A stretch of 64,000 nt of DNA from Cyanobacterium sp. uoEpiScrs1 (GTDB lineage Bacteria > Cyanobacteriota > Cyanobacteriia > Cyanobacteriales > Microcystaceae): positions 372,001-436,000 of the forward strand of contig NZ_OX373462.1 in NCBI RefSeq assembly GCF_947331815.1, read 5' to 3'. Shown here one piece after another: positions 7,719 to 47,422 of this stretch. Under the pieces are notes generated by a model. It searched no databases, had not been told where the DNA came from, and worked only from the letters and a program-made list of their open reading frames with translations. The translations under genes were made by a program, and so were the position numbers. Every line of letters starts with the position of its first letter. The stretch's first letter is position 1.

Positions 7719-8338
7719 AAAGAGAATATATTCAGCACTCTCTCATATCTTTTTCCATTAATCCATTCTACTTAGAGATAGACCACCTCTCCGTACAAAG
7801 TAATTTTGTCTAGTTATCTTTCTCAACAATTGTCAGTGTAATAATACTATATTACACTGACAATTGTTGAGAAACTTTTCTCTTATTTTCTTAGCAGGCT
7901 AGATAGGTTCACAACATATTGTTAATTAATAAATTTTGATAGTTTTTAGGAGTTAGGTGTTGAAAAATAACCTTAAATATTATAGTCCTAAAAATATACA
8001 ACTATAGCTAAAAATAAATATAAAACAATATAAATAGAGAAATATTAAGAAAAATTTTTATTTATTGTAAAACACTAATATTTAAATTATAAGTTGTGTT
8101 ATGATTACAAAAGAAAATACCTGTTGATTATAATCCGATAGACAGAATGAAGTGAGATCATCATTTATTTAAAGGCTTGAAAAAATTTTAACCTATATTA
8201 CACAATTTTATATTTTATTTTGCTGAGAGAATCAAGACTACGATAGAATTAGTAAGAGTTTATCTTTTTAAACAAAAATAATTTAAGTAAAACTTACACT
8301 GAAGAAGACCGTTATCATGAGGTTTGCACCATCTCCCA
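7719..8338. other. Intergenic stretch dominated by one long hairpin
   Basis: I see no gene here. The only structure is the perfect 23-bp inverted repeat at 7821-7872. The rest is AT-rich. Confidence 0.6.
7821..7872. repeat. Perfect 23-bp inverted repeat, 6-base loop
   Basis: The arms 7821-7843 and 7850-7872 are perfectly complementary and the loop is atacta. It lies between two minus-strand genes, 470 bases after the tamB-like stop and 115 bases before the CCB start. It could be a terminator, a fold-back element or an RNA hairpin; no target-site duplication is evident. Confidence 0.85.
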
Positions 8339-11300
8339 TTAAAATCGCTGTTCAAATTGGATACTACCGCGACTATCATCAGTAAAATTACTCGATCCTC
8401 GAATCAAAATGTTATCATTAATATGATAGCGAATTCCCATATGAGAAGGGCTATCATTATTTAATATTTTTTGCATAGAAACTGATAATTCATCAGTAAT
8501 ATTAATCCCTGCTTCCGCTACAACCCCAATATATGGATTATTTAACTGTTCTGTTTCATCAATTAACTGTGTAGGAAAAACACGAAATTCGCTTAATCCT
8601 AATGCTTTTCCAATAGCACCTTGAACCGGTCCAAATACTGCAGTCCCGGCTAAATGAGCTAAACCTAATTGGGTTTCCAGTTTTTCTAAAGGACTAAGAA
8701 AACTACCCCCTAATAAGGCGATAATCTCAGCAGAATTCCGTTTGGGTTGACTAGTTAATTCAATTCCATTATTTAACTGACTGGCAAAGCCTTTAACGGT
8801 TGCTTGAATACGAACAGTTTGTAAACTGTCCGTATTTGCACTAAAAGGATCATTAATTTCCGATGAGATAGGATTAACATTCACCCGATTACGGGTTGTT
8901 TCTGTGGTAGAAGTAAATAATTTAATATTTAAATAGGGATCGAGACCGTGATTAGGAAGAAACTCAGCTGTATTTTTTTGACTTTCAGCTAAGCGTAATT
9001 GACTAGCAAATAAATTAACTAGGCCATTTTGTAGTGTAATAATTCCTTCCAGTCGAGGTTGATCAATATTTCCGTCAACGGCAAGACTTCCCGTGGCTAA
9101 AAAACTCAAAAGAGGAAGACGAGAAATAGAAATATTCTCCACTAACGTTAGTTTTAACCCAGCAAATTCAAGATAAGTTGGCATTTTTTGCCTTTCTTCT
9201 CTTGTATCTCCGAGTAGTACTTCACCCTCAAATAATTCTAAATCCCCCCCTATTTTCGGTCTTAAAACTGTTCCTCCCACTTGGATAGTTCCTTTTACTC
9301 CCCCTTGATAACGTTGAGGTAGATCTAATACTAAATTATTAAAATCGATAGTTAAAGGGTGTTGCTGCTTGATAGTTTTAAGGATGGGTAATGATCCTTC
9401 TATGGTTACTTGACCACCGCTAAATTTCCCAGTTAACCCTGCAACGGTCAGGCGATCAAGGTCAAACAAAATCTTGCCATTGACATTAGTTAATGGTGCA
9501 TCAGGAACTACTTTAGCTTCAATAGTAGCGTTTTCTATTTGGGCTATCCCGTTAGCGTTGAGCTGAGTAGGAAGTCCAAGTTTTTGATCTAATAATCCTG
9601 AGACATTAAGTTTAATCTTGCCTTGTCCTCCTAGCCAAGCTACCTGTCCTTTCGTGAGAAGGTTTAGAATAGTTAACCCTTCGTTTTGAACATCCACCGT
9701 TAGGGAAAGACGATCGCTATTCGGTTGTACTTTTGTAAAGGGAAGTTGATAGGGAAAGGTTCCCTTGACGGTTAGGGGTTGAGTTCGCTTGCCCAATATA
9801 CTACTAGCTGAAAAGTTCATCCGTCCCCGATGATAGGTAAACCTACCTTCGGTGGATTGCAAGGTTGTTTTATTAATGCTTGCTTTATTAATAGCAAGTT
9901 TTCCTAAAATTTCGGGATTATCCCGATTTCCAGCTAGGCTAACATTAGCGTTGAGTTGTCCTCCAATATCCAGAATCTCAGGTAGGGACAAAAATTCTGA
10001 AAACTCATCTAGAGGAATATTGACTAATCGTAGTTTACCTTCTTGATTTTTCTTTCCAATATGACCGGCAAAAGCAATTTGACTACTTTTGTGTTGTAAA
10101 CCGACAGAATTTAATGTGAGGATACCTTTTTGCCAACTTCCCTTAGAGTTGATATGAGTGAGATTAAAGTCTCCCCAATTCCAATTTTGACCACTGAAAT
10201 CAAAATTGGCTTCTAACCCAGATTTAGGGGTGAATTTAACCGCAATTTTTCCATCAAACACACCTTGCAATTGTTGTAATTCTGGTAAAGGTGATGCTTT
10301 TTTACGAGTTTGCTTTTGTCGACTTAACCAGTCATTAATAGCTAGGAAATGGATTAAACGATCACTAATAGTTGCCTTGTCACTTCCTACTTCTGCTAGG
10401 GGTGGTTTTAAAGTAAAAGTAGGAAGTAAGGATTTTGTTCTTTCTAACTTGTCTAAAACCGTTTCTTGATCCGTGTTACTTATTCTCTTCGTTTTATACA
10501 AATCTTTAGCTTTAGCATATTGAGGAGTAGTTAGTCCTCGTCTGATATCTTTTAATTCAAAGATTTGTAGGGTTTCAAGAATATTTTGAATGTTTCCCTG
10601 ATCAACGGTAACATTAGCATTTAAATGAGGACCTTGTGAAGTTGGAGTAAAGTTACCTTCAAAACTATATAGACTATTATTGAGCGTTAATTTCCCTTTT
10701 TTGATAGTAAGATTCCTGTCAACATATTGAACATCTCCCGTCAATTTTTGTCCTTTGACCGTTCCCAATTGAGGGTTAAAGATAACTACTTCTCGTCCGG
10801 CAATCGCTCCTGTATTTAAATTTAATATAAATTGTCCTGATATCTCTCCCAAGAGAGGTTGAGTGAGTAGATAAGTAGAGGCATCAAAAAGAGATAAGGT
10901 AGAAGAGAACTTTTTTGTACCTCCTCTCTTCAAAATATAATTTTGCAGTAAGCTAATAGGAATTTGCCGAACTTCTAAATTTACCTTTCTTCCTTCGCGT
11001 GTTCCTTCTAGCTGCACTTGTTCCTGTTTCAAGGAAATAGCTAGAGGTTTAGACTGATTGTCTAACTCTAAGTGAAGGTGATCTTTTTTTCCATCTAACG
11101 CTAATTCGACTCCTCGCTTGGGATTAACGTTTAACTTTCCCTCTAAAACAGGGTCAAATCTCAAGCTACCAAGATTAAAGTTAATTAGAGATAATTGACC
11201 ATTAATGTTTGGAGCGTCAGGTGTTCCCATAATCGCTCCGACAAAATTTACTTTTCCAGTAGGATTTATCTTGTTATTATTGAAGGTAGAATTTACTTTA

Positions 11301-13879
11301 GATAAAATTGGGAGCAAATTTTTAAAATCAAGTCTTTTAGCTGAGATATCTACGTAAAATTCTTTAATTATCTTGAGCACATCTTGAGTTTTTCCTAATA
11401 CCAACCAATTAATCTTACTCCATCCTTTAATAGACATTCCTGTCGCGGTAGCTTGATCAATAGTTAAAGTATCGTCTTTCCAACTAAATACTGTTTGAAA
11501 CGGGCTTTTGATTACCCCTAATCCTTGACTAAAGTTCAACTTTCCCCTAACTTCAACATTCTGAGGAGTAATACTATCTAATCTGCCATTAACCTCAATT
11601 TTTCCGTTAACTTTATTATTTAAATCTGAATTAAACTGATTTAAATTAACTACTTCTGTTGAAATTGTAGAAATAAACTTACTGTCATACAATTCTATTT
11701 TTTGTATATCAGTATGTCCTTTTGGTAAAAGAAGTTCAGCATTTACTTTACCCAATAAGTTTTCTGAAGCTACCGATAAAGTTCCTGGTAAGTTAAATAG
11801 TAATTTAAGCTTATCAGGAACTTTATCGGTAGCTTCAGAAAATATTTGATTTATATAAAGATCATTTATTAGTAGTTTACTCGACCATTTTCCATCATTT
11901 AATTTAAATTCATTAGCATTAATTTTTCCTTGAGATAGCTCTAAAGTTGCATTTCCTCCACCCTGAATTTGATCTAACCCTAATGGTAGATTTCCAGCCA
12001 AGTTAAAAGTCGCTTTCAATATACCATCTAAGCTTGGAATATTTTTTAGATATATGTTTTTTGTTTTTACGTTAATAAAAACTGAACCAATATTCCATTT
12101 TCCCTTATATATTCGTAAATCATCTGCTATTATCTTTCCGTCTTTCATAAATACTTGAGCCTTTCCCGTCACCTTTAATGTCTCAAGAAATGGTTTGTTG
12201 ACGTTTCCTGATATTTTAAAAATTCCCTGTAATATTCCATTATTTAACTCTTTAGGAACAGGCAAAACCAAACTATCTAAATCAATATTCAATGTCTCTA
12301 TTGTTCCTTGCCAGTCTCCTTGATAATAGTTTAAGTTATCAGCTTTAATTGCCCCGTTCCCAATCTTTAAATGACTGTTTCCCTGCACTCGTAAAGTTTC
12401 AGGTTTATGAACAATACCTGAAATAATTAATTTACTAGATAATTTATCAATTTTTATGGGATATTCAGTTTGATAAATTCTAGATAAAGTTTCACCAGCA
12501 AGATTAGAACTTTGCAGATCAAAAACAAATTTGCCAAACTTATCTGAGTTTGTTGTAACTATATCTATTTTCCCTTTCCCTGTTATTGCTCCACCAAAAA
12601 TTGGAACTGCTTGAATTTGTTTAATTAGTAAAGTAGATTTATCTGCAAAAAATTGAGCATAAATCTTTTTAAATTCAATTTTATCAATTTTACTTAATTT
12701 AGTATTAGATACAGTTGAATGAATCTGGGGATTATTTAACTTTCCTCTTATTCGCAAAACTCCTTGAAAATCTCCTCCCAGAGCAATAGCAGGAGATTGT
12801 TTTTTAAAAGTTGTAAAAATTTGACTAATAGAAGTAGGTTTAGTTATAGTATCTAAATTATATCCTGTCTTTAAATCAAGTTCACCTTTAGTAATTCCAG
12901 TAATAGAACCAAAACGAGTAGCCACTTTATCAAACCTTATTTTAGTTCCTTTTAAACGAAGTTTCCCTTGAGTTTGTACAGGATGAAGAAGAGAAACAAT
13001 AGAAGTATTAACTTGATGTAAATTAACGACTCCTCTCAATTCAGGAAGTTGATTTGGCTTTAGATTGACTTCTAAATTAGCATCGATTTTTCCCTGTTCA
13101 AAAGCTAAAGGAACATCAATAAAATGTTCAATTTTTTTAAAATTTTTTACATCTAAGCGATGCCCTCTAACCAACAAATTTATTTCTTTTGTTGACCATT
13201 TTTTGCTACCAATAACTTCAAATTTTCCTCCTGCTGTTAAGTGACTATTTATTTTAAATGTAATTATACCAAGATTATCAATAATATTAATTTGACTTGA
13301 TAAATGTTTAAATTTAGTGGTAGCAGAAACTGTCCCTTTAGCTGAATAAGGTGCTAAAATCAGATTAGCATCTTTAATCTGTAAAAATTTTAGCTTGATA
13401 AAATTATTTCCTGTGAAATCATCTAGTTTTGTTAGTAACCAGTTGCCCTGTTCCCCTTGTTTAAGATAAACATTCGGTTGAATTGCTGTTACTTTAATTT
13501 CTAATTCTCGCTTTAAAAGTAGTGTGAGAGGATTATAGGCTACATCCAAAGCGGTCATAGTAACTTGAGCAGGATCAGTAGTAGTTTGAGCAATTTTACT
13601 TTCGCCAAAACGCACTCTACTCAACGAAAAATACTGAAGGTTCCCTAAATTAACTGGACGATTTAAAAAATCACTGAGTTCAGTTTCTACCCAAGGAGTT
13701 AGGTTCCGCTGCAAGAAAAACCATCCAGAGATTAAACTTGTGCCTAATCCTATTAAGATAATCCCACCTCCCCACATCAAAACGCGGTAATGCCAGGGAG
13801 GAGCTTTTTTATGAAGTTTGGAGGGATAATGTAGCTCAGGTTCCCGTGTTGTGTCTGAATGGGAGGGGTCTGTCGTCAT
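8339..13879 (-). CDS. TamB-like translocation/assembly module protein (DUF490)
   Basis: This giant protein of about 1846 residues has one N-terminal membrane helix (HYRVLMWGGGIILIGLGTSL) and then a very long, repetitive beta-rich body of AsmA/TamB type, in which alternating strands form a hydrophobic groove for lipids across the periplasm. The C-terminal 350 residues match the DUF490 domain (ALLGGSFLSPLEKLE and the final strand ending in EQRF). In cyanobacteria and chloroplasts (TIC236) such proteins bridge the inner membrane to an outer-membrane Omp85 partner. I prefer the ATG at 13879; a GTG five codons upstream (13894) is also possible. A 28-bp perfect inverted repeat lies within the frame at 11760-11842, yet the frame stays open. 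Confidence 0.9.
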   Translation of the reverse strand: MTTDPSHSDTTREPELHYPSKLHKKAPPWHYRVLMWGGGIILIGLGTSLISGWFFLQRNLTPWVETELSDFLNRPVNLGNLQYFSLSRVRFGESKIAQTTTDPAQVTMTALDVAYNPLTLLLKRELEIKVTAIQPNVYLKQGEQGNWLLTKLDDFTGNNFIKLKFLQIKDANLILAPYSAKGTVSATTKFKHLSSQINIIDNLGIITFKINSHLTAGGKFEVIGSKKWSTKEINLLVRGHRLDVKNFKKIEHFIDVPLAFEQGKIDANLEVNLKPNQLPELRGVVNLHQVNTSIVSLLHPVQTQGKLRLKGTKIRFDKVATRFGSITGITKGELDLKTGYNLDTITKPTSISQIFTTFKKQSPAIALGGDFQGVLRIRGKLNNPQIHSTVSNTKLSKIDKIEFKKIYAQFFADKSTLLIKQIQAVPIFGGAITGKGKIDIVTTNSDKFGKFVFDLQSSNLAGETLSRIYQTEYPIKIDKLSSKLIISGIVHKPETLRVQGNSHLKIGNGAIKADNLNYYQGDWQGTIETLNIDLDSLVLPVPKELNNGILQGIFKISGNVNKPFLETLKVTGKAQVFMKDGKIIADDLRIYKGKWNIGSVFINVKTKNIYLKNIPSLDGILKATFNLAGNLPLGLDQIQGGGNATLELSQGKINANEFKLNDGKWSSKLLINDLYINQIFSEATDKVPDKLKLLFNLPGTLSVASENLLGKVNAELLLPKGHTDIQKIELYDSKFISTISTEVVNLNQFNSDLNNKVNGKIEVNGRLDSITPQNVEVRGKLNFSQGLGVIKSPFQTVFSWKDDTLTIDQATATGMSIKGWSKINWLVLGKTQDVLKIIKEFYVDISAKRLDFKNLLPILSKVNSTFNNNKINPTGKVNFVGAIMGTPDAPNINGQLSLINFNLGSLRFDPVLEGKLNVNPKRGVELALDGKKDHLHLELDNQSKPLAISLKQEQVQLEGTREGRKVNLEVRQIPISLLQNYILKRGGTKKFSSTLSLFDASTYLLTQPLLGEISGQFILNLNTGAIAGREVVIFNPQLGTVKGQKLTGDVQYVDRNLTIKKGKLTLNNSLYSFEGNFTPTSQGPHLNANVTVDQGNIQNILETLQIFELKDIRRGLTTPQYAKAKDLYKTKRISNTDQETVLDKLERTKSLLPTFTLKPPLAEVGSDKATISDRLIHFLAINDWLSRQKQTRKKASPLPELQQLQGVFDGKIAVKFTPKSGLEANFDFSGQNWNWGDFNLTHINSKGSWQKGILTLNSVGLQHKSSQIAFAGHIGKKNQEGKLRLVNIPLDEFSEFLSLPEILDIGGQLNANVSLAGNRDNPEILGKLAINKASINKTTLQSTEGRFTYHRGRMNFSASSILGKRTQPLTVKGTFPYQLPFTKVQPNSDRLSLTVDVQNEGLTILNLLTKGQVAWLGGQGKIKLNVSGLLDQKLGLPTQLNANGIAQIENATIEAKVVPDAPLTNVNGKILFDLDRLTVAGLTGKFSGGQVTIEGSLPILKTIKQQHPLTIDFNNLVLDLPQRYQGGVKGTIQVGGTVLRPKIGGDLELFEGEVLLGDTREERQKMPTYLEFAGLKLTLVENISISRLPLLSFLATGSLAVDGNIDQPRLEGIITLQNGLVNLFASQLRLAESQKNTAEFLPNHGLDPYLNIKLFTSTTETTRNRVNVNPISSEINDPFSANTDSLQTVRIQATVKGFASQLNNGIELTSQPKRNSAEIIALLGGSFLSPLEKLETQLGLAHLAGTAVFGPVQGAIGKALGLSEFRVFPTQLIDETEQLNNPYIGVVAEAGINITDELSVSMQKILNNDSPSHMGIRYHINDNILIRGSSNFTDDSRGSIQFEQRF
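11760..11842. repeat. 28-bp perfect inverted repeat inside the tamB-like gene
   Basis: The arms 11760-11787 and 11815-11842 are perfectly complementary; allowing a few mismatches the stem continues inward. On the protein it covers residues near 680-707, including SEATDKVP on one arm and GTLSVASE on the other. The coding frame is intact through it. Confidence 0.9.
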
Positions 13880-13969
13880 GACTTTTCTTCTCACACCACC
13901 AGTGGCTAACCGCGTTAACGATTTCTTCGACTACATTATAGAGTCCTCTTTGTAAGGTTTTGTTTCTTC

Positions 13970-15538: not shown

Positions 15539-16537
15539 TTAAGTTTTTATTTAAAAATACAATAACAAGACAATTCTTTACACAAAATTCTCAATTTAAT
15601 ACTTAAAAATATAAATATAAAGTGTAATATTAAACAATTAGTTAAATAAAAGTATAAGTACTGTACTTAAATAGTATAGCAGATTATGTATTTAAATTAA
15701 ACTATGCATATTTAATCAAGAATTTAAACTCAATTTATAAATATATTTAATCCAGTCCAATACTTTCTATTTTAATATATAAAGTATTCTCTGTTATTGA
15801 TTGCTGTAATTATTTAAAATATAAATGTTTTAATCGATTCTATGTGACTTGTATTGACAATTATAAAAATAAAAAATACTTATCAAAAAGTATCAAATAG
15901 CTATACATTTATAAGTTATCTTAAACATATAGTAAAAATATGTCATTACTCATTTTCATAAAATTTTTAATTAATTTAGGAAATAATACATTTAAATATC
16001 AATAATAATACTTGATAAATGTCAAGTATTACCTGAACTACATTGGTTTAGCAAAAGAGCAAAATTAAAGAATATTAATTATCTAAAAAATTTTTCTATT
16101 TTGCTTATATAATTTAAATATGATAATATGTTTTTTGTGCCAAAAATAGTCATTGTATTGTTTTTGACAATTAAACATAAAAAACAGTAGTAACAAAAGT
16201 TTAGAGTCTTAAATTAAATATAATTTTTGTCATGTCTTTATTTTAAGTTTTTTCTATAAAATAAATTTTAAATGTTTAAAATTATTCATTAATTTTTATT
16301 CCCTAAAAAGGGATATATGCAATTAAAATTAGCAAAAAATGTTCTTTAATACTCTAAATTTAGAAGATTTTAAATACTTAATAATATAAGTTAAATAGAT
16401 AAAATTGGTGCACAGTAAACAAAAAATTCTCAAAAATTTAGATAAAGAATGTAGATAAAATCTATTAAATATTTAATAATTCTTTATTATCAGAATATTC
16501 TAGATAGAAAAAATAATAATTAAAGTAACTTTACTAT

Positions 16538-16580
16538 ACTAAGTTTATACAAATATTTTTTTTATTTGTATAAACTTAGT
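16538..16580. repeat. 17-bp perfect hairpin with T-rich loop
   Basis: The arms 16538-16554 and 16564-16580 are perfectly complementary; the 9-base loop is nearly all T. It is not next to any surviving gene. Confidence 0.8.
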
Positions 16581-17119
16581 AAAATCAATTTTTTTATAAG
16601 ATTTATTTGATAAATTTTTGATGTAAATTACATGAAATCTTTTGATTTTAACCTAATTAAAATCAAATTTATACTATAGAAAAATAATAATATATTATAT
16701 ATACAAAATTTAATATCGGATGCTTTTTAAGCTATTAATTATTTGTCTATCTAATTTCTTTTTAGTAAAATAAAATACAAAATCTATATTCTTATAAAGA
16801 TAAAATTTACTAAACATATAAATTCATAAAAAATTGATTATTGCTTAAATTTAACAGTAAATTTTTAATATATAAAATGGAGTTTTATCGACAAAAATAT
16901 GGCATCATTTTATTTATTAGAAATAAATAAAATAGCTTAAAATTTAGTATAAACATATTAGATTTAAAGCAATTATGTCAACACTAGTTCTTTTAGTTTT
17001 AATTAAAATTATTAAAACTAAAGTAGCATTTTTAATGTTTTAGTAAAAAACTTAACTTTAAAAACTATTTAAAATTTAATATTTTTTTAGTTTAGTGAAT
17101 AAAAACAAAAAAGTGAAAA

Positions 17120-20461: not shown

Positions 20462-21758
20462 TTTTACTTACCCTCTCTTAATAATGATAATGATAAAGAT
20501 GACGTTTTATAGTCTACAACTATACAGTAGAATTTACTAATTAGTAAAATTGGATTCGATTAAGTTTGAGAATAGTAATATATTCCTTTTCTATATAAAT
20601 AGCTTGGAGATTATTTAGAAAAATTAAAACTATTATAATAGTTTCTTCTCGCTAGATCATTAAAATCTAAACTACACAATATTTTAGCTGTTAAACAAAA
20701 AATAATTTAACAACTAAAATACTGTGTAGTTTATACAAATTACTAGAGATTTTATTGTGTCAGCTTCAACTTTAATAGAGCAGAAATTGAATGTATTTTA
20801 TATAGCTTTTACAGTCAAATAAATATATCAAAATATTTTATACAATAAATATCTTACACTAATGTAAATAATATAAATCCTAGCTAATTCGTAAACTTCT
20901 TAAAAGATATTATAGACTATTTTTAAGTATCAAAACAAACTTTATATGTTTTTTGCAATATAAATAGTAACAGTAATTTTATTTGTTTAATATCTTTTGT
21001 TTTATAGCTATTGCTTAAGTGCTATTAAAGATATAATTTTGTATACCAAAAGTTATTAATTAATACATACATTACTAATATTTAAAATTTTAGTAATGTA
21101 CAAAAAGACGAGGTAAATGTCTGATCTGCATAAATAATTAAGGCTAAAATAATTATATTTAATCAAAGTAAAGAAGAAAATAATCTTTGTTAGGATAGAT
21201 TTTTAAAAATTTTATAGAGCAACTAAGACTGTTTAAGTAGCCAGTCAAAAACCTGAAGAGGTGTAATGTATTAATGATATATTTAATATCTAAAATTTCA
21301 GATCTATTTTAGATTTGATCACATAAATACTTAAATTAGAAATATTTGTGTACTAAAATACAACTAATCAACTTAAATATATTGTTAGTTTGTTATTTCA
21401 GATAGAGTTTTAAGGATATATTCTTGATATTTAGCTTTAATACTAATTAAATACTGCGCAAACTTACAAATAGAATTCTTATATGCTACACATGCATTAT
21501 CTAGAATAAACTTAAAAACTAATGCTCATCAATTCGTATGCTATTGTATAATGCAGAGTCTTATATACTCTTTAATTAATCTAACTAGATATTATACATT
21601 TATCTTAGTCCAGTCAAGTCTGAAACTATAATGTTATTTAAAAGATTTATTATACAAATATAATCTTAATTAATTTTCTATTTTTTTTTAAGATAATTAA
21701 CTTACCGAAGACTTTTTACGTAAATTTGAGAGCTTTATCAATTAGATCACTATAAGTT
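20462..21758. other. AT-rich gene desert
   Basis: I see no gene and no named remnant. The only distinct structure is the long inverted repeat at 20669-20732. Confidence 0.6.
20669..20732. repeat. 27-bp inverted repeat, two mismatches, 10-base loop
   Basis: Arms 20669-20695 and 20706-20732 pair at 25 of 27 positions. It lies about 210 bases upstream of the metK start. Both flanks are AT-rich and no gene abuts it. Confidence 0.8.
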
Positions 21759-38155: not shown

Positions 38156-40179
38156 ATCATTTATTCTTATCAGAAAGATACTGCATAAATTTTTATCAAA
38201 CAATTTATTTTTAAGAAAAACAAGAATTTTAATAGTAAAAGTGTGAAAAATAAATGATTATATTTTTTGTCCTTGTATCAACTTTGCTTTAATTACTCTG
38301 ATTTTCAATTCTGTCCAGGTTGTTTGTTTGCATTTATTAACAAAAAACTGTTAATATTTCTTCTCAGTCATTAAGTTAGATAATTAGTAATTATTGACTG
38401 TGAAAATATTAATAATTTTGGACATAACTATTAACGTAACTATTTAAAAAGCTAGTTATTAAACTTTACCAAAAACTAGTTTTTACCTCAGACAAAATAC
38501 TAAAATAGTAACAGAAAATAATTCATCTTACCACAAACTCTACAATAAAATGTTATCATTATTAAAATCCATTAATGACGTCCATAGTTTATCCTTAAAA
38601 ACTTAATTTTTATTCCGTAACAGTCTAGAAATTGTCGCTATTTTACTCCTTCAATTTTTTAAAAACCTTGGATAACTACTATTTAAAACAAAAATAAAAT
38701 ACCGATATTAACAGTAATTATTGTTGACAATTAGCAATTTTTACCCTTAAACAATAGATTGTTTTTTATAAAAAAAATTTAAAGTATTATTGGCTTTAAA
38801 TACTATTATATTAGTTATATTTTTAATTCTTTTTCTTCTTATTATCTTAGATACAATATTTAGTTAAAAACCAAGTATTATTATCTTAACACAAGTTCTC
38901 TATAGTAGAATTTACTATGGTTTAAATAAAAAAATCTATTATGGATTATTAGTATTTTTATATAAGCAAGTAAGTGCAATAATTATAAAAACAAGTAAAA
39001 CTTAAAAAATATAAAAATATACAATATTTTATTTTGTGAGAAAGATACTTATCAGCGTAAGATTGTATGTTATTTAATTAGTGGATACTTAATATAGATA
39101 TATTTAAATTAAAATATTAATAACTTAGACTTAGACATACTAAGTCTAATTAGGCATATAAAGCTTAATAATTGATACTGTTAAATTACTAAATAATATT
39201 TTAATTTATAAAGGTAATTAAAATGAGCCTTGATATCTACTTAAAAGTACTTAGTAAGTTTTTCTAAAGATTAGATAATAAATATAAACTAACATAGTAA
39301 ATAAAAATATATATTAACTTATCTTTTTATTAGTTCACTGCACATATTAGTTCTATTTCACTACTTTTTATAAAAAATAGTGAAATAGAATTAATGTCTT
39401 TGTATTTATTATAACTGCCAAGTACTTATAGCAATATTTTATATCTACTAATGACGCCCAGCATTAACTCTTCTTATAGTAACTAAATAACTTTAGTTAC
39501 TGTCTATATTTTAAACTTAATAGTCAGCTTAATAACATAAATCTCAATAACTCTATGACATTATTTATAATTTACAAGTTATAACTGTAACTGTACAATG
39601 GTATTTAATTGTTTAGTATTGGATAATTTAAGTTGATATTTCTTGTTTTGCTGTAAAAAAATTGTTACTTGATTAAACATAGAATATATAGCATCTCTAA
39701 TGATATTCTATATGTATCTGTAGAGTTAAAATTGACTTCAATAGAGTGAGCCTAATTATTTTAATTACTATTTTAGCTGAATGGTTTATTTAAAAGCAGA
39801 ACACATAATGAATTTAAGCTTTATATAAATATCAAGTATTCTAAAAGAGCGGATAAACTATTAATTAATATATAAATATTATACTTTTTTGTAAAAAGAA
39901 ATTACAAATTAATTCTTTAAAAATAGATTCTATTCTAAATAAATTAGAAATCAATAATAATTATTATACCATCAAATATTCTGGATTATACGAACTCAAA
40001 AGTATATTTTATTTTAAATAGATAGCACAAATGTTAGGACTTTAAAAATTAGCTAATATAATTTGTTTTTTTACAAAAAGTATCATTGTAAATGATTATC
40101 TCCAGTTACAAGATAGACCACCGAGAAGGTAAACTAAAAACTGGTCACGATCGTAGACAGTAAAGAGAATCAAAACATC
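38156..40179. other. AT-rich gene desert
   Basis: About 2 kb without a gene. Hairpins at 39125-39149 (9-bp arms ttagactta/taagtctaa) and 39351-39390 are the only structures. The last 100 bases should hold the pheT promoter. Confidence 0.6.
39351..39390. repeat. 20-bp inverted repeat without loop
   Basis: Arms 39351-39370 and 39371-39390 pair at 19 of 20 positions, forming a near-perfect palindrome that would extrude as a cruciform or fold as an RNA hairpin with a small terminal loop. Confidence 0.8.
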
Positions 40180-46324: not shown

Positions 46325-47422
46325 ATGACTTTGATTTTGACTTTTCTAGGTAGAGGCGATAGTCATCAAAGTTCGATATCAATCGCAACTGCAAAAAAAA
46401 TGTCCAGTTTAGGGTCACAAGTTCTCTTGGCAGGACAGAACCCTGGGCCGACTTTGAGTACTCTACTTGAAACTCCTGTAAATACTGTCCCAACAAAAGT
46501 TGAAGATAATTTAATGGCAGTTAAATTATCTTCAACTTTTCTTTTAGAAAAAGAATGGGAAAAAGTTAAGGAATTAGAACTTCAATATCTGCGATCACCG
46601 ACTCTGAAAAATGTCTACGGTCAAGAATTGGGGGTTTTACCAGGAATGGAGCAGATATTATCACTCAATGCCCTGCGGGAATATTATCAAGGCGGCGAAT
46701 ACGATGTTATTATCTACGACGGCGACAGCCCTCTAAATACTTTAGGGATGTTCGGAATTCCAGAGCTTCTTAGTTGGTATCTACGGCGATTTGGTCGGGT
46801 ATTGAAAGAATCGGATGTGGTAAAAACACTCTCCCCTTTTATTCAACCCATCACTAGTGCAATTTTAAATATCCCTAGGACTGCTGATGACCTGTCCCAA
46901 AAATCTACTAGCAGCGCTAATAACCTCTTAAAAGAGGGAGCAAAGACTTTGGCTAATCCTAGCTGTATGGCAGCCTATTTAGTAACCACTAACGATGAAT
47001 TAGCGATTGCTGAAACTAAATATTATTGGGGTTGTGCTCAACAGGTGGGGTTAATGGTCAAAGGGGTATTGGTTAATCAAGGTCAAGTTAGTGATTCTCT
47101 GAACCAAGAATTTTCACCCTTGTCAGTGACAGCTGTTTCTCCAACGACAGGAACAGATTGGCAACTCCTGCAGGACACTTTACCAAATTTCCTCGTTAAT
47201 TCGATGCCCCCCCAACCCATTACGGTCGATGTATTTTCTAGAGAAGTTCGATTATTTTTACCTGGATTTGATAAAAATCAAGTAAAACTGACTCAATATG
47301 GTCCAGAGATTACCATTGAAGCAGGAAATCAACGGCGAAATATTGATTTGCCTGTACCATTACGGGGAAAACTTGTTAAAGGTGCAAAGTTCCAAAATCA
47401 CTATTTGATTATTTCTTTCTAA
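46325..47422 (+). CDS. Get3d/ArsA-like ATPase-fold protein with degenerate P-loop
   Basis: The 365 residues match the cyanobacterial ArsA/Get3 family with a C-terminal alpha-crystallin-like domain (about 285-365, VDVFSREVRLFLPG), the Get3d type. Get3 proteins handle hydrophobic membrane segments; Get3d's client is unknown. The deviant Walker A of homologues, a GKGG-x-G-(K/R)-T type loop, reads GRGDSHQSS here (residues 9-17): the signature lysine is arginine, the next glycines are Asp, Ser and His, and the second K/R is Gln. ATP binding is therefore doubtful. The rest, including SPLNTLGMFGIPE, is intact. A 20-bp perfect inverted repeat lies at 46495-46540 in the frame. It precedes chlG by 58 bases. 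Confidence 0.8.
   Translation: MTLILTFLGRGDSHQSSISIATAKKMSSLGSQVLLAGQNPGPTLSTLLETPVNTVPTKVEDNLMAVKLSSTFLLEKEWEKVKELELQYLRSPTLKNVYGQELGVLPGMEQILSLNALREYYQGGEYDVIIYDGDSPLNTLGMFGIPELLSWYLRRFGRVLKESDVVKTLSPFIQPITSAILNIPRTADDLSQKSTSSANNLLKEGAKTLANPSCMAAYLVTTNDELAIAETKYYWGCAQQVGLMVKGVLVNQGQVSDSLNQEFSPLSVTAVSPTTGTDWQLLQDTLPNFLVNSMPPQPITVDVFSREVRLFLPGFDKNQVKLTQYGPEITIEAGNQRRNIDLPVPLRGKLVKGAKFQNHYLIISF
46495..46540. repeat. 20-bp perfect inverted repeat inside the Get3d-like gene
   Basis: Arms 46495-46514 and 46521-46540 are perfectly complementary around the 6-base loop tggcag. The encoded residues (about 57-72, TKVEDNLMAVKLSSTF) remain in frame. Confidence 0.92.

Follow-up and report, generated by a model that had tools for sequence, protein, structure and literature searches.

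A palindrome in a cyanobacterial tamB gene as the probable footprint of template switching within an imperfect inverted repeat

A long palindrome lies inside an intact tamB gene in the 64,000-nt stretch of cyanobacterial DNA analysed here (the window), which comprises bases 372001-436000 of a single 2,483,960-base contig from the genome labelled G000. The source organism appears to be a nitrogen-fixing cyanobacterium that lives inside a diatom, and the nearest named relative found, with 77% identity in the TamB protein, is the cyanobacterial endosymbiont of Rhopalodia gibberula, a diatom (NZ_AP018341). A preliminary description, made from the sequence alone, had reported a 28-bp perfect inverted repeat in a tamB-like reading frame and had proposed that it arose by quasipalindrome template switching without breaking the gene. 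The repeat is present at 11760-11842, where the 28 bp form the perfect core of 38-nt arms that are separated by a 7-nt loop and pair at 35 of 38 positions (92% complementary). The outer 28 pairs are perfect and all three mismatches fall in the inner 10 pairs. The frame is open throughout, as had been described. The features at the locus, in window coordinates, are:

8339..13894, minus strand: tamB gene (DUF490-type), 1851 codons, intact (open frame; Pfam PF04357, E value 6e-45; colinear orthologues)
11815..11842, minus strand: arm A (gene-5'), 28 nt, perfect complement of arm B, codons 685-694; best source for the outer 20 pairs
11760..11787, minus strand: arm B (gene-3'), 28 nt, codons 703-712; best source for the inner 8 pairs
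11805..11814, minus strand: inner continuation of arm A, 10 nt, 7/10 paired
11788..11797, minus strand: inner continuation of arm B, 10 nt, 7/10 paired
11798..11804, minus strand: spacer loop, 7 nt, inverted relative to relatives (reconstructed ancestor: 0/7 direct, 6/7 reverse complement)
11771..11822, minus strand: best single block as a reverse-complement copy of the ancestral sequence, 52 nt, 50 nats, from the inverted-copy scan

Among the matches listed for the window (25 of the 36 pairs within 200 nt), the tamB palindrome was the longest that was at least 90% complementary, and two longer inverted repeats in the window were only 70-74% complementary. A perfect stem of this length had been held very unlikely to arise by chance, and Markov resampling, performed once per sampled genome, yielded no repeat with perfect arms of at least 15 nt. 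The coordinates show that the arms pair third codon positions with each other (phase 3). As RNA, the stem was predicted to fold at -54 kcal/mol (z = -14.4), with none of 200 shuffles equally stable, in agreement with the strong mRNA hairpin suggested earlier. This stability would suit a selected RNA structure in the tamB message, serving as a pause, cleavage or attenuation site. We regard such an origin as highly improbable, since the stem is not conserved among relatives (see below) and all 12 Rfam matches to it were microRNA families below their gathering scores, which only restate the hairpin shape. The inversion of the spacer demands a mutational cause in any case, and a selected structure would be compatible with a template-switch origin. 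A gene-end stem with a T run, as in an intrinsic terminator, was not found at this site, the stem lying in codons 685-712 of 1851.

Comparison with relatives indicated that the sequence at this site was replaced and not inserted. In the 11 relatives whose pairs were counted, 10-18 of the 38 positions were paired, compared with 35 of 38 in the window, so relatives lacking the palindrome do exist. The palindrome, whose conservation in distant relatives would have spoken for a selected function, was seen in none of these 11, nor in 18 further relatives judged from protein rows alone, some of them incomplete. At each of the positions 684-714, 21 to 28 of the 29 relatives had a residue. Counted in codons, the site is as long in the window as in orthologues L003-L007 and L016; since length and frame are equal to those of the closest relatives, nothing was inserted. 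This bears on the possibility of an in-frame insertion of a mobile palindromic element. Rickettsia palindromic elements are repeated insertions found in open reading frames, and the perfect stem within a frame that is still open would fit an element of that type. We consider this very improbable, given that no codons were added relative to L003-L007 and L016 and that the palindrome occupies a single locus: a genome search for a second copy gave the two arms as the only strong matches (next best E value 0.004 over 29 nt). A plasmid search gave no match. A match in genome G001 to one arm, with three mismatches, was also rejected as a related copy; it belongs to another gene, whose translation reads as metK and which lies some 6 kb away from what is left of tamB in that genome, and was taken as chance. 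In two further genomes of the genus, G001 (C1:2128574-2128975) and G003 (C1:2013720-2014102), tamB was matched at its N-terminal end only, with stops, so neither can inform on the palindrome site; the genes neighbouring the tamB remnant persist in G001.

An imperfect inverted repeat probably existed at this site before the event, because the site in L003, the nearest relative, pairs at 18/38, a level reached by 1% of the other centres in its gene (average 10.3).

To reconstruct the earlier state of the site, 11 orthologues were used to predict the sequence of the window lineage, each codon position having its own substitution model, and gene-wide the window base was the best prediction at 83% of sites. 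The 7-nt loop of the window matched the prediction at 0/7 positions in direct orientation and at 6/7 as its reverse complement. Compared with L003 alone, the reverse complement likewise matched at 6/7, and L016 is identical to the inverted loop (7/7). The inverted loop fitted better than the direct loop in 10 of the 11 relatives, the exception being L017. For the inner 27 nt, the log-likelihood (lnL) was -51.0 in direct and -17.1 in inverted orientation, and at one pair a G in arm A facing a T in arm B became an A facing a C, as a swap gives. When the whole gene was scanned for local inverted copies, the score was 50.0 nats at the palindrome, compared with 13.9 at the highest-scoring place outside it, and it reached at most 19.0 in 500 simulated genes. 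The inversion of the spacer, a sign that the preliminary description had not foreseen, is the decisive evidence for the proposed mechanism.

The two arms were also made alike, in a way that no single copying step explains. Without any switch, the site had an lnL of -110.5, and the alternatives, whose values carry no penalty for events or breakpoints, were as follows: the whole 83 nt simply inverted, -76.6; one arm copied and the spacer left in place, -77.8 (A to B) or -83.7 (B to A); one arm copied and the spacer inverted, -43.9 (A to B) or -49.8 (B to A); an inverted spacer with B as the source of the outer 11 pairs and A as the source of all others, -40.7; an inverted spacer with A as the source of the outer 20 pairs and B as that of the inner 8, -36.9; and a three-part mosaic, -33.7. 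With the inner block scored inverted, copying of one arm beat independent arms by 27-33 nats and the two-source model did so by 40. No single arm accounts for all pairs, and the simple model in which one arm was replaced is weaker than the two-source model. The arms were homogenised, but the earlier expectation that one arm would be ancestral and the other replaced was not cleanly borne out: the gene-5' arm is the best source for the outer 20 pairs, and the gene-3' arm for the inner 8. Because both arms contributed, two switches or one compound switch are likely.

The mixed ancestry of the arms also bears on whether the palindrome could be an assembly or amplification artefact. Inverted joins are a frequent library artefact, and a fold-back chimera would produce one. 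We consider such a chimera very improbable here, given that both flanks remain colinear with no change in length or frame, and that ancestral states are mixed within the arms. In addition, the endosymbiont that the source probably is was assembled from PacBio HiFi reads (PMC11167328).

Homogenised arms together with an inverted spacer are the footprint of template switching during replication, and we therefore regard the tamB palindrome, with high confidence, as the product of a template-switch mutation within a quasi-palindrome and not as an element. The origin proposed earlier is thus strongly supported by a change that is specific to this lineage and kept frame and length. In the course of events that we infer, including the replication mechanism and the number and order of the switches, the polymerase would leave its template inside the imperfect inverted repeat, copy the complementary or sister strand across the spacer and then return, so that the spacer and the inner stem would be flipped together. 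The 28 perfect pairs would result when one arm was copied onto the other, either by a second switch or at a later stage of the first event. In an economical order, the first switch would invert the centre with eight pairs on each side, and the second would copy A onto B over 28 pairs. Such an order would explain why three mismatches lie in the inner 10 pairs and none in the outer 28. As the exchange was in register, neither length nor frame changed, and the tamB gene was preserved with one short stretch rewritten.

A flipped centre and arms of mixed origin are likewise expected from a route that needs no polymerase switch, in which a cruciform is extruded, cut and religated, inverting the centre, and mismatch repair in the stem homogenises the arms. 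That route is expected to need a palindrome that is already long. The nearest relative has about half of the pairs, and we judge the cruciform route unlikely.

Several points weigh against template switching as the origin or weaken the evidence for it. The window base was omitted at each prediction, yet the window gene entered the tree and the rate estimates. In the simulations, sites are treated as independent and rates are those of the gene as a whole, whereas the rewritten segment falls where the protein is variable. Identity to L003 is 15/28 for arm A and 19/28 for arm B, so that neither arm is clearly old, and arm pairs 7 and 11 fit neither predicted ancestor. With protein identity of just 77% to the nearest orthologue, and no closer relative for comparison, the ancestral states are uncertain. 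The best simple reading requires two events. Orthologues L008-L015 are two codons longer within arm B, and the spread of 10-18 pairs among the other relatives leaves the age of the quasi-palindrome uncertain.

The change altered the protein locally. Among residues 685-712, 16/28 differ from L003, compared with 23% gene-wide, and only 2.6% of 28-residue windows are as divergent. Conserved positions are among those replaced, namely G694 by D (G in 25 of the 28 relatives that have this position), N697 by K (N in 21/28) and L710 by S (L in 20/28), and G704, identical in 28/28, was retained. The arms encode mostly variable loop residues. In a predicted model of residues 560-860, the mean predicted local distance difference test score (pLDDT) was 83.9, with 69-77 in the blocks around the site, and the arms fall mostly in loops flanking one beta strand (695-705) that is encoded mainly by the inverted centre. 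On this model, it is plausible that the TamB fold tolerates the rewritten segment. The branch lengths of the window gene were 0.127, 0.071 and 0.231 for the three codon positions, and tamB seems to be under constraint because third positions still change fastest.

A second coding palindrome in the window shows the arrangement that had been expected for tamB:

46492..46543, plus strand: coding palindrome, 22/23 pairs, 6-nt loop, in an ArsA-like ATPase gene (Pfam PF02374); loop not inverted

In two orthologues (G005 and G003) the same site pairs at 12/23 and 14/23 positions with an identical loop, and orthologues were matched in five further genomes. Relative to G005, the right arm kept 18/23 bases, with four of its five changes at third codon positions; the left arm kept 15/23, and a six-base run in it was replaced as the right arm of the window dictates. 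One arm thus appears old and the other replaced, and the palindrome looks like the outcome of an event of the same kind, forming a cleaner case than tamB.

To place both cases in context, hairpins were counted in 464 kb of G000, including the window, in 400 kb each of G005, G001, G003, G013 and G006, and in 240 kb of G002 from two contigs. The count covered hairpins outside open reading frames (ORFs) of at least 100 codons, with perfect arms of at least 15 nt and a gap of at most 60. The four diatom-endosymbiont-type genomes contained 246 noncoding hairpins in 671 kb (G000, 57; G005, 50; G001, 65; G003, 74), and G013, a 1.44-Mb genome, contained 28 in 75 kb. By comparison, the larger-genome relatives G006 and G002 (4.8 and 5.2 Mb), which are presumably free-living, together had 2 in 89 kb. 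A single order-3 Markov resample of the same noncoding pieces gave 1 hairpin for the four genomes, 0 for G013 and 0 for G006 and G002, which rules out base composition as the cause of the excess on the basis of one resample per genome. Nor are the hairpins of the four genomes mainly terminators, because their proximity to 3' ends is about random: with arms of at least 18 nt, 24/155 lay within 150 bp of an ORF 3' end, as against 775/4860 random noncoding 50-mers. In G013 (L158-L177), 14/19 hairpins lay near ORF 3' ends versus 455/1200 random points, and terminators are not rejected there. Hairpins with arms of at least 18 nt inside ORFs were rare (G000, 2; G001, 1; G003, 2; G013, 1; none in G005, G006 or G002), and two of these six, in L127 and L138, are situated at the edge of an ORF and are possibly noncoding.

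Individual hairpins were also observed apart from these counts. The gap downstream of tamB carries a 25-bp perfect hairpin with a 6-nt loop (window 7819-7874), which is imperfect at the homologous site in G001, and more long imperfect hairpins, 74-93% complementary, lie at 16510-16608, 20668-20733 and 39346-39395 of the window. The longest perfect arm in the G000 sample belongs to a palindrome of 38 perfect bp (L067, 4033-4109), which has a loop of one base and lies outside ORFs of at least 120 codons. In G003, a palindrome with 20-bp arms and a 1-base loop (L147, 19951-19991) lies inside a gene read as uvrA from its translation.

Homologous sites allowed some of these palindromes to be compared between genomes. 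For palindromes with arms of at least 15 nt and enough flank, 30/253 had a homologous site in the sampled sequence of another of the four genomes. The homologous site was less complementary than the palindrome in 33/34 rows, a result that alone proves nothing because the palindromes were chosen for perfection. Sorted by eye, the 16 palindromes with homologous sites and loops of at least 5 nt comprised five inverted, five direct and six unclear loops. The five classed as inverted were tamB, L151 at 15961, L082 at 2411, L067 at 6730 and L152 at 14561; as the gapped pairwise alignment of the tamB site was out of register, its loop was read from in-register comparisons. The loop of L151 (15961-16004, G003) matched the G005 homologue in L096 at 10/10 positions when inverted and at 5 when direct, with arms well paired in both, and is a flipping hairpin. 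For L082 the loop matched at 8/9 inverted versus 5 direct, and for L067 at 4/5 versus 0. The L152 loop matched at 6/6 inverted in the alignment, and a free search within 12 nt also gives 5/6 direct. Some sites have one older and one replaced arm, such as L083 (5163), where the arms matched G001 at 21/22 and 16/22 but matched G000 near-equally at 19 and 18 of 22. The same process acts at other loci of these genomes.

The loss of genes for palindrome processing or repair was considered as a cause and rejected at the level of gene presence. SbcD, MutS, RecJ, RecA and RecG were each found in 12/12 genomes, and SbcC was matched in 12/12, in 10/12 above the cut-off and in two genomes of 1.4-1.5 Mb below it. 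XseA, the large subunit of exonuclease VII, was found in 1/12 cyanobacterial genomes (G002) and not in the other 11; it does not separate the groups, because G006, with few hairpins in its sample, lacks it too. The hairpin excess may stem from relaxed selection on decaying DNA, from a raised switching rate, or from both.

We tentatively propose, as a possibility for which the evidence falls somewhat short of even, that since endosymbiosis began quasi-palindrome template switching has been a main source of sequence change in nitrogen-fixing diatom endosymbionts, flooding decaying DNA with perfect flipping hairpins, occasionally rewriting working proteins, and forming a bacterial parallel to hairworm mitochondria. 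The tamB case indicates that a run of adjacent codons in a bacterial gene can be rewritten in one or two mutational steps while the gene stays intact, and ordinary substitution models would take such rewriting for rapid evolution or positive selection. Should the pattern seen in the samples hold, template switching could be counted along a natural series within the clade, from larger-genome relatives to endosymbionts at several stages of decay, and the control of this process outside E. coli and yeast would become testable. No report on hairpin accumulation in these diatom endosymbionts was recognised in the literature searched, as judged from titles and the starts of abstracts; the mechanism itself is already known, and the abundance of hairpins across the lineage is what had no earlier report there. 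In a survey of inverted repeats in bacteria, endosymbionts account for 28 of the 200 genomes in which frequencies were highest (PMC10434271), and the endosymbiont of Epithemia pelagica is described as having a smaller genome than other endosymbionts of its group (PMC12903740).

Quasipalindrome-associated template-switch mutation was reportedly described by Ripley in 1982. That template switching corrects quasi-palindromes has long been established (PMC7202029). In E. coli, as in tamB, an imperfect inverted repeat is made perfect by copying one arm from the other; however, the E. coli reporters detect the loss of a 4-bp frameshift (PMC7202029), whereas in tamB the spacer was also flipped and both arms supplied sequence. 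Another comparison is with the Rickettsia palindromic elements, which the hairworm study names (PMC6649704). They share with tamB a palindrome in an open frame, but are repeated insertions, whereas the tamB palindrome is a single rewrite in place. In the mitochondria of Nematomorpha, long perfect inverted repeats lie in intact coding genes and were gained and lost between species, and template switching is given as one possible mechanism (PMC6649704). These palindromes reach 284 bp with many per genome, and those longer than 65 bp occur only in phases 1 and 2, phase 3 being the most constraining according to that study (PMC6649704). The tamB palindrome, by contrast, is a single 28-bp core in phase 3. 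A close parallel in kind lies in the yeast gene REG2, where an imperfect repeat became perfect and its spacer was flipped within coding sequence with the frame kept, a 5-bp arm and 5-bp spacer giving a 16-bp arm and five amino acid replacements (PMC8604942). Both cases combine homogenised arms with an inverted spacer in a coding sequence, keep the frame and replace neighbouring amino acids, and REG2 is the smaller version: tamB has 28 perfect pairs (38 in total), an inverted block of at least about 27 nt, and 16/28 residues that differ from the nearest relative.

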